Of a DNA stretch of 64,000 nt, positions 28,569 through 64,000 are shown piece by piece; the first letter of the stretch is position 1, and every line of letters starts with the position of its first letter. The translations under genes and the position numbers were made by a program. Under the pieces are notes generated by a model. It did no database searches, was not told the DNA's origin, and saw only the letters and a program-made list of their open reading frames with translations. The DNA is from Bacteroidales bacterium (GTDB lineage: Bacteria; Bacteroidota; Bacteroidia; Bacteroidales; Muribaculaceae), in contig JAAVFL010000009.1 of NCBI GenBank assembly GCA_014800795.1, positions 84,277 through 148,276 of the forward strand, read 5' to 3'.

Positions 28569-28789
28569 ATAAGTAAGTCATGAAAATTATTACGTATAAT
28601 ATACTTAACAGGACTTTATATCATCAGCGACATCCTTTCGCCGGATTTTACCCTTATCTTCAGTCTTTTTCGACAAGCTCAAAAGCGCAGGCGATAACGT
28701 GTAGCTCGCTACACTCCTTCATCTTCGGGCAAAATCCGACTGAAACTTTGCTCACGGATAATATAAAATAATTTCCACGACTTACTTAT
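28569..28789. mobile_element. 221-bp MITE-like element with terminal inverted repeats
   Basis: Both ends read ATAAGTAAGTC inward. The terminal repeats match at 21 of 23 positions, with AAATTATT following. Inside are nested complementary segments: CGGATTTTACCC at 28642-28653 against GGGCAAAATCCG at 28727-28738, and a GTGTAG-CGAG-CTACAC hairpin. A second copy in opposite orientation starts at 63881. No transposase is encoded; the 63-aa ORF inside (28580-28771) is probably not a gene. A target duplication is not clear. The right end abuts the ATG of the HipA-like kinase gene. Confidence 0.75.
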
Positions 28790-29797
28790 ATGAAAATACC
28801 CATTCATAAAATAGAGAACTATACATGGATCACCAGCCTTAATGTCCTGAATGTGCCGGTTATCAAACGCTGCAACTATTTTGTGGATGATACAATTTCT
28901 GTTGATGGCGATGCTCCAAAAAAATTCATCGGTATATACGACTATAGCTTACTTGAGCATAAACATAAGTCAAACCGCAAAAACTGGATCCGTTATATCG
29001 CTAAGACCGGTCACAAATGGTATCCGTCAGAATCAATCACCGAATTGCTTATGAACAGGCTCGGGACTATTTTTGGTCTTAATATGGCTGATTCACAGAT
29101 TGCAATGATTGGAGGCCAGTTACGATTCATGAGCCGCTATTTTCTAAAATCAAACAAAGAGGAACTGGTTCACGGCGCAGATATTCTCGCCGGCTACCTG
29201 AACGAATCACCCAGATATGTAGAAGAAGTGGATCAACAAAAGATGACACGTGATTTATTTACTCTGCAGGTGATAGAGGAAGCGATAGATAATTTATTTC
29301 TATATCAGAAAGAAGAGATTCTCCACGAATTGATCCGATTAATTATATTCGATGCATTAGTTGGAAACAACGATCGTCATTTCTTTAACTGGGGAGTCAT
29401 ACGATCGGTAGATAATAGTTTTCAACCATTTTTTGCGCCAATCTATGATACAGCCCGAGGATTATTCTGGAACTACTCTGAAAACAAGTTAAAAGAGATT
29501 GTTGAACTAAACAAAACTACAGATAAGCATATTAAAAAGTATTGTAAAAGTTCACGCCCCAAAATAGGGTGGGAAGGAGAAAAGAATCCTAATCATTTTC
29601 AACTTTTCAGACAGATATATACTAACCAGTTCCATATTTCCGTTGATGAAATCAGATCAATGCTTGAATATTCAGTTCTGAAGGAAATGATTAGCGAAGT
29701 CTCGGAGAATTTCGGAACATTAATGAGTGCAAACAGAATTTTACTCATATGCAAATGTTTGGAATACAGGTTTAATGAATTAAGGAAGATATTATGA
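28790..29797 (+). CDS. HipA-family kinase domain protein (HipT-like)
   Basis: The 335-residue protein carries only the kinase part of HipA. The catalytic loop GNNDRHFFNWG (192-202) gives Asp195 and Asn200, the same five-residue spacing as HipA Asp309/Asn314. The metal-binding Asp220 is in PIYDTARG. Residues 78-120 (ESITELLMNRLGTIFGLNMADSQIA) match the helix-strand segment that follows the Gly-rich loop. A HipA-type SVxGxQ P-loop is not evident. HipA-type toxins phosphorylate tRNA synthetases or related targets; the target here is unknown. The DNA is AT-rich compared with its neighbours, suggesting transfer. It overlaps the next gene by ATGA. Confidence 0.82.
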   Translation: MKIPIHKIENYTWITSLNVLNVPVIKRCNYFVDDTISVDGDAPKKFIGIYDYSLLEHKHKSNRKNWIRYIAKTGHKWYPSESITELLMNRLGTIFGLNMADSQIAMIGGQLRFMSRYFLKSNKEELVHGADILAGYLNESPRYVEEVDQQKMTRDLFTLQVIEEAIDNLFLYQKEEILHELIRLIIFDALVGNNDRHFFNWGVIRSVDNSFQPFFAPIYDTARGLFWNYSENKLKEIVELNKTTDKHIKKYCKSSRPKIGWEGEKNPNHFQLFRQIYTNQFHISVDEIRSMLEYSVLKEMISEVSENFGTLMSANRILLICKCLEYRFNELRKIL

Positions 29798-30180
29798 CTA
29801 AGTTTAAAAAAGTTTTTGCCCGCCTGTTCTGGTCTGAAAGCCAGAATAAAGTATTATTGAATGCAGATCATGACGCTACATTCAACATCAATCTGGGCAG
29901 ATTACATGTAGGAACTCTTCTATATTCAGATAAAATATGGTATTTCAGCTACAGTAATGACTTTAAACTCCAAAATAAGATATTACCATTGGCTAATTTT
30001 CCATCAACAGAAAAAGAATATTCAGCACGTGAACTGTGGCCTTTTTTCGCTTCACGAATACCTAGTAACGCCCAACTGCAACTTGGGCGCGAAAATCCAC
30101 AAGAAAATATAGTGACATTATTGCAAAAGTTCGGGCGCCGAACTGTTGCCAACCCATATGAATTAGATCCTGTTATATAA
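29794..30180 (+). CDS. HipA N1-like domain protein (HipS-like), putative antitoxin partner
   Basis: The 128-residue protein resembles the N-terminal N1 domain that precedes the kinase in one-piece HipA. LHVGTLLYSDKIWYFSY is followed by LPLANFPSTEKEYS and LWPFFASRIPS. In the described HipBST systems a separate N1-like protein (HipS) neutralises the kinase. Here the gene lies downstream of the kinase and overlaps it by 4 nt, so the two are translationally coupled. No HTH (HipB) gene is present on either side. Antitoxin function is inference. Confidence 0.75.
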   Translation: MTKFKKVFARLFWSESQNKVLLNADHDATFNINLGRLHVGTLLYSDKIWYFSYSNDFKLQNKILPLANFPSTEKEYSARELWPFFASRIPSNAQLQLGRENPQENIVTLLQKFGRRTVANPYELDPVI

Positions 30181-63880: not shown

Positions 63881-64000
63881 ATAAGTAAGTCGTGAAAATT
63901 ATTTTATACTTTCAGGGAGTGTATTTTTGAGCGACTTTCGCTCGAAGATGAAGGAGTGTAGATGTCTACACGTTATCGCCTGCGCTTTTGAGCTTGTCGA
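63881..64000. mobile_element. Second MITE-like element copy, truncated by window end
   Basis: It begins ATAAGTAAGTCGTG with AAATTATTTTATA, matching the right terminal repeat of the 28569-28789 element. It also shares, in inverted orientation, the long block from CGAAGATGAAGGAGTGTAG through GCGCTTTTGAGCTTGTCGA, differing mainly in the 4-nt hairpin loop (ATGT instead of CGAG). The region between 63755 and 63880 holds no gene. Confidence 0.75.

Follow-up and report, generated by a model that had tools for sequence, protein, structure and literature searches.

MITEs in bacteria are commonly regarded as passive remnants of IS elements, and for most of them the mode of movement is not known. A repeat that is present twice, in inverse orientation, in the 64,000-nucleotide stretch of DNA analysed here (the window) raises the question of whether such an element can be under selection for a fold of its own. 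The initial annotation had taken the repeat's conserved pairing as a sign that a fold, of RNA or of DNA, is under selection and that passive transposition is not the whole story, a proposal that covariation and strand specificity support.

Extent and parts of the element

The repeat is a real 221-bp element that starts with ATAAGTAAGTCATGAAAATTATT and has the inverted end AATAATTTCCACGACTTACTTAT (Table 1). The 23-nt terminal inverted repeats (TIRs) that had been described are confirmed from the sequence, with two mismatches between the ends, and both differences become G.U pairs on the strand that reads GAAGGAGTGTAG, hereafter C+, which for the window copy is the minus strand. The ORF list contains no ORF of 70 or more amino acids inside the element, which has the short (221 or ~188 bp), non-coding form of a MITE, bounded by its 23-nt TIRs. 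The inverted second copy also stands as originally described; it is incomplete since window position 64000 is also the last base of contig C9, a matter of assembly and not of biology. When both copies are read on the same strand, the GTGTAG/CTACAC stem is constant and the loops are CGAG and ATGT, as had been noted. The conserved stretch after the stem, described as about 37 nt, consists for the most part of a 33-nt block (plus strand, TTTTTCGACAAGCTCAAAAGCGCAGGCGATAAC) that is precisely missing from some copies: in the window genome (G000) there are two copy sizes, ~221 and ~188 bp, and the difference is exactly this block. A related block is present in a congener (G004, L048), and one is also seen outside the genus (G019, L053).

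At 28790-30180, immediately past the end of the element, comes the ATG of an ORF for a HipA-type kinase (HipA_C), followed by a separate ORF for the HipA N-terminal domain (Couple_hipA); HipA is thus split here, and its kinase part leads. Near the second copy is a Bacteroidales small SRP RNA (Rfam RF04183, 63618-63725, minus strand).

Table 1. Coordinates of the element, its parts and its second copy in the window
Feature	Position	Strand	Basis
Whole element, 221 bp	28569..28789	- (folding strand C+)	sequence, genome BLAST, folding
TIR, 3′ end on C+ (ATAAGTAAGTCATGAAAATTATT)	28569..28591		sequence and TIR pattern counts
TIR, 5′ end on C+ (ATAAGTAAGTCGTGGAAATTATT read on minus)	28767..28789		sequence and folding
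Match to covariance model R1, E=1.2e-8	28636..28742	-	model built without the window copy
Apical hairpin GTGTAG-CGAG-CTACAC	28699..28714	-	sequence, covariation, model R1
Apical tandem-GA motif, 5′ half (GAAGGA on C+)	28715..28720	-	sequence and alignment
Apical tandem-GA motif, 3′ half (GACTGA on C+)	28660..28665	-	sequence and alignment
33-nt optional block, between apical hairpin and GACTGA	28666..28698	-	sequence comparison of copies
Second copy, C+ on plus, cut by end of contig C9	63881..64000	+	sequence and genome BLAST
Apical hairpin of second copy, GTGTAG-ATGT-CTACAC	63956..63971	+	sequence

Copies in the genome and its relatives

A search of the window genome (2.72 Mb, 54 contigs) with the 221-bp sequence, proposed as a check in the initial annotation, turned out in its favour: 51 BLAST matches merge by position into ~42 dispersed places with defined ends, the multiple dispersed copies typical of a MITE. 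The TIR pattern TAAGTAAGTCRTGRAAATTAT, allowing up to three mismatches, has 121 matches in this genome versus none for the reversed control. Contigs C2, C3, C4, C5, C9, C32, C34, C44, C45 and C48 end inside copies, which makes the repeat a main cause of breaks in the assembly. The apex of the element occurs in 55, 37, 27 and 19 copies in four other genomes. Of 61 genomes searched at the DNA level, 15 match (the window genome, ten congeners and members of four genera from its family), and there is no match in any other family. Element queries found no match in plasmids, phages, E. coli genomes or viral contigs, and no Rfam covariance model matched over the element, either in the window at the gathering score or in 19 loci with the E limit set to 3 or 5.

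A hairpin formed by one strand

The predicted folding energy of the window element is -82.5 kcal/mol (z -8.25) for the minus strand (C+) and -52.6 kcal/mol (z -4.67) for the plus strand, and C+ folds better in 106 of 110 elements from many genomes, by a mean difference of 14 kcal/mol. In the arms of 35 non-redundant elements, G.T oppositions number 82 versus 29 for A.C (binomial p=5e-7), and a stricter set of 22 elements has 53 versus 20; because G.T on C+ is A.C on the other strand, this excess is unexpected from the unselected decay of a double-stranded palindrome. Of 37 diverse sequences, 36 and 37 have G.A at the two tandem-GA positions next to the stem, and 32 have it at the two positions beyond; these oppositions would read as C.T mismatches on the opposite strand and are a sign of strand specificity independent of the arm wobbles. 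As modelled, the element is a long hairpin on one strand with a distinctive tip, which the other strand forms poorly. The stem with a free loop that had been claimed keeps its conserved pairing but is predicted to be only the tip of this far longer hairpin.

The apex takes the form GA-x-GA-AG-GA-[GUGUAG..CUACAY]-GA-CU-GA-y-GA, in which tandem G.A alternate with Watson-Crick pairs. The covariation test that had been called for also came out in support: in an alignment of 32 diverse sequences (A1), pairing cells make up 83.9% versus 64.7% when shuffled, 143 cells have changes on both sides versus 55 in shuffles, and the covariation score of 0.498 (0.171 shuffled) was reached in none of 500 shuffles and fell to at most 0.175 when the partner was slid by 1-3 columns. 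Double changes occur at 18 of 21 pairs, and every Watson-Crick combination (AU 14, UA 11, CG 5, GC 1) is seen at the pair beside the second GA step. The sequences of A1 were chosen by their apex, the conservation of which is partly by construction; the arms were not so chosen. Part of the conservation of the GUGUAG stem is plain sequence conservation. Within one genome, that of Hoylesella timonensis, the stem is found both as GTGTAG/CTACAC and as GTATAG/CTATAC, and more distant members have GCGTAC/GTACGT, GTGTAC/GTACAT and GTGATG/CATCAC. Model R1, searched against the window, finds the window copy on the minus strand (Table 1).

It is very unlikely that the element is a passive MITE whose palindrome derives from joined IS ends and whose conservation reflects recent spread from a few masters. 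Its size, its TIRs, its lack of long ORFs and the many near-identical copies within a genome all fit such an origin, but the covariation is found among sequences less than 80% identical, paired changes recur within the H. timonensis genome, and passive decay of a palindrome would produce neither the strand asymmetry of the wobbles nor strand-specific folding. Selection on the folded strand is supported, and the G.U and tandem G.A pairing on one side would favour RNA over single-stranded DNA as the folded molecule.

The 3′ arm contains the motif GCCAAMAAG in 42 of 110 elements, versus 3.8 expected from shuffles. A tandem-GA hairpin similar to the apex, GGGA-GCACGC-UUAG-GCGUGU-GACU, is present in E. 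coli 23S rRNA (L375:3670-3705). Mimicry of rRNA was rejected as an explanation, since one such hairpin in E. coli 23S rRNA is about the chance frequency (tandem-GA hairpins as such arise by chance, with 16 in the 64-kb window); the rRNA hairpin is a possible lead toward a binding protein.

One apex with different ends

A scan for the apex in one genome per species (84,980 species) returned at least 114 stretches. Among the matches listed, the TIRs of the apex elements are TAAGTAAGTC, TAAGTAACTG, TAAGTAGGTG, TAAGTAGATG, GGCTGGTTCTATAAATTA, GGTGGGTTCTATTAATTC, AGAAGCTGTTTTGAA, TAAGTGATGATAAA and others, and across Bacteroidales the apex is found with at least eight TIR types. Because spacing and arm layout are similar among elements with different TIRs, judging from the sequences as read and not from a tree, these elements may constitute one superfamily with diverged ends. 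The occurrence of the same tip with different ends in many gut bacteria, and in several other phyla as the genomes are labelled, suggests that the elements depend on a folded RNA.

In an even sample of Bacteroidales, at least 14 of 295 genomes, from 13 genera, pass the threshold of the model, a lower bound given the strict filters and the scoring of only 16 candidates per genome. The window genome was the only one of 296 found in a phylum-wide search with the model, so cases outside Bacteroidales are either rare or too diverged for it. Exact matches to GGAGYGTASN{2,8}STACRYGACT were found in genomes labelled Verrucomicrobia (7), Clostridia (4), Legionellales (3), Alphaproteobacteria (3 and 2) and Thalassolituus (1), and a control pattern had 0 matches in these genomes. 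Except for the single Thalassolituus copy, the non-Bacteroidales matches are repeated and lie in long hairpins, and inverted ends can be recognised in several of them; the genomes are mostly MAGs, in which the phylum is that of the genome label and contamination is possible.

A Bacteroidales-only family, with the likeness of the apex elsewhere due to convergence, chance or MAG contamination, is conceivable though doubtful, and would be compatible with a MITE that carries a structured RNA. By our own rough estimate, ~19 chance matches to the scanned pattern are expected in 257 Gb, the matches in Cohnella and Thermoplasmata look like chance, and tandem-GA hairpins are as frequent by chance as noted above; against this, the Verrucomicrobia, Clostridia, alphaproteobacterial and Legionellales genomes each have 2-7 copies of the motif, placed in long hairpins, where the control had no matches. 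A further reading, which we regard as unlikely, is that the apex is a cross-phylum RNA signal required for the spread of small transposable elements with unrelated ends, one that might for example recruit a conserved host RNA-binding protein and make mobilisation RNA-dependent.

In a Clostridia MAG (L160), same-apex elements on the minus strand near 1478 and 1879 lie between AAAAAAAGAGC / GCTCTTTTTTT and resemble bidirectional terminators. Typical Bacteroidales elements are present in L116 and L163 (JAMPHR, labelled Paenibacillus) and in L124, L151 and L187 (JAMPHO, labelled Alistipes timonensis), both labels probably being wrong.

Target sites and candidate transposases

Mapping of ends and target duplications, another suggestion of the initial annotation, succeeded for the ends, whereas duplications of 4 bp were obtained for two other TIR families and only TA for that of the window. 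In the GGCTGG family, 67% of 33 elements have exact, AT-rich 4-bp target duplications, as do 57% of 7 elements in the GGTGGG family. The TAAGTA families, which include the TAAGTAAGTC TIR family of the window, have only TA at both ends, and this TA may belong to the TIR; no longer target duplications were found for them. Copies joined end to end with pieces of others are seen just upstream of position 1500 in L070 and around the element of L162, and their junctions, CAGTTACTTAAGTAACTGG and ACTTACTTAAGTAAGTC, are consistent with a shared TA. For one insertion in the window genome, the same genes are separated by just a short gap in a congener (G001), the sites being too diverged for an exact reading of the empty site. 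In L004, an insertion in the window genome (element at 1501-1719) appears to have taken the place of the stop codon in a gene of membrane-transporter type; the gene ends in TGA in G001, and the change would lengthen the protein.

The search for a transposase with matching ends, recommended at the outset, found none among the PF13358, PF13701 and PF01609 families and the genomes searched. IS630-type DDE_3 (PF13358) is absent from the window genome, and DDE_Tnp_1 (PF01609), nearly absent from G000, G001 and G005, has other ends where present and was rejected as the autonomous partner. The IS1380-like (PF13701) elements of Prevotella ihumii, P. bivia and Alloprevotella were rejected for the same reason; those numerous in P. 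ihumii (G061) and P. bivia (G062) have ends CCTTAATTCCGCAG, unrelated to the MITE ends. A pair of TIRs in the window genome (C54:36283/40268) was considered as the ends of an autonomous element, but it encloses flavoprotein and acyl-CoA-dehydrogenase-like genes and therefore consists of unrelated single ends.

The folded strand might be DNA. Covariation does not separate RNA from DNA, and single-stranded DNA, too, can pair in a strand-specific way and form sheared tandem G.A pairs, in which case a hairpin of C+ could be the substrate of a Y1/HUH-type transposase or other single-stranded-DNA-binding protein. However, single-stranded-DNA elements like IS200/IS605 make no target duplication and have orientations tied to replication, and they are not matched here: the 4-bp duplications of two families are DDE-like (the window's own TIR family having TA only), the elements end in TIRs and not in subterminal hairpins, and orientations along the P. 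ihumii chromosome are mixed (26 forward and 29 reverse; a count by hand gives 25 runs versus ~26 expected), whereas blocks would be the outcome of lagging-strand transposition. The duplications and mixed orientations disfavour single-stranded-DNA transposition, less decisively for the window's own TIR family, and the reading of the hairpin as DNA is considered improbable.

Position relative to genes

The elements are intergenic and close to gene ends. With gene positions assigned by a simple ORF heuristic, the orientation classes of neighbouring genes number 30 ++, 24 --, 26 -+ and 14 +-, and the elements have no orientation bias relative to these genes. A 3′-UTR function was rejected because the bias it predicts is not seen, and inspection by eye revealed no conserved promoter inside the element. 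If the element were a cis-acting mRNA element of the Correia/NEMIS type, its hairpin would be transcribed by read-through and cut by RNase III or stabilise the mRNA, and copies would be kept for their effects on neighbours. The intergenic sites near gene ends agree with this, a long rod resembling double-stranded RNA is a plausible substrate of RNase III, and cleavage of NEMIS RNA by that enzyme is published (PMC2649163, PMC10969869). On the other hand, cis regulation of neighbours should give an orientation bias, yet ++ and -- are similarly represented although only C+ folds well, and the presence of the element in Bacteroidales is patchy (14 of 295 genomes at the threshold used, a lower bound). 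A cis-acting role is thus unlikely, and the absence of bias indicates that the structure most likely serves the element itself and not its neighbours.

Comparison with known repeats

The PINSR repeat of the Prevotella intermedia/nigrescens group (PMC4755523) is 188 bp long, intergenic, present in 177-184 copies per genome and also reported in P. falsenii and P. disiens. It resembles the present elements in length (~188 bp), copy number and host species, of which P. falsenii (L152) and P. disiens (L122) carry present elements; it differs in having been described without RNA structure and without TIRs, its authors stating that it is not a MITE. Compared by description and not by sequence, PINSR is probably the same kind of element.

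The Correia/NEMIS repeats of Neisseria (PMC2649163) are ~105-155 bp long, with TIRs, TA targets, a hairpin RNA and an optional 50-bp internal block. In our analysis they are the closest functional parallel, sharing TIRs, TA targets, a hairpin, an optional block (33 nt here) and the lack of a known transposase. Their 26-bp TIR and core ends TCAGGACAA / CCGGTACGG are not matched by the present elements, which have TAAGTAAGTC and others, and a comparison by reading with the core ends that PMC2649163 quotes does not show the tandem-GA apex among them.

The MRSC class (PMC11109978) comprises multi-copy single long stems that covary, in many phyla, with the choice between an RNA and a DNA form undecided; the present elements, as multi-copy single long stems with strong covariation and many phyla, are similar in each of these respects. 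The UYCCGG stem repeat of MRSC-65-2, the one MRSC candidate compared, is found on either strand in only 10 of 110 present elements. QMITE1 and QMITE2 of Coxiella burnetii (PMC5896051) are MITEs whose copies give small RNAs and stable stem-loop transcripts; they have other ends and sizes. REP elements (PMC3733652) are likewise palindromic and extragenic, but they are 20-40 bp long with a GTAG/CGTC end tag, whereas the present elements are 130-270 bp long with TIRs and, in two families, target duplications. The present repeats are MITE-like elements with a conserved strand-specific apex common to several end types.

A proposed structured RNA carried by a MITE

We consider it somewhat probable that the repeat is a MITE, a DNA element bounded by TIRs and not autonomous, and that it carries a structured RNA which is conserved, specific to one strand and selected at the level of the element. 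It would move as double-stranded DNA by means of a DDE-type transposase acting in trans; a promoter of the element or of a neighbour would drive transcription of C+, and the RNA would take the form of a rod whose tip is recognised by a conserved RNA-binding protein or nuclease. The benefit of the structure would most likely go to the element, by helping its propagation or making its insertions tolerable, rather than to the regulation of particular neighbours. It counts against a MITE of this kind that selfish RNA functions are unusual where no partner has been identified.

For MITEs, the significance is that one strand of such an element is under strong structural selection and that the same tip is found across TIR types with different target duplications and, in repeated form, in genomes assigned to several phyla. 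The covariance model and the short, putative binding motif are a concrete object with which a protein partner may be found. The element explains many contig breaks in Bacteroidales assemblies, and high-copy repeats of gut and oral Bacteroidales, probably including PINSR, acquire a structural reading.
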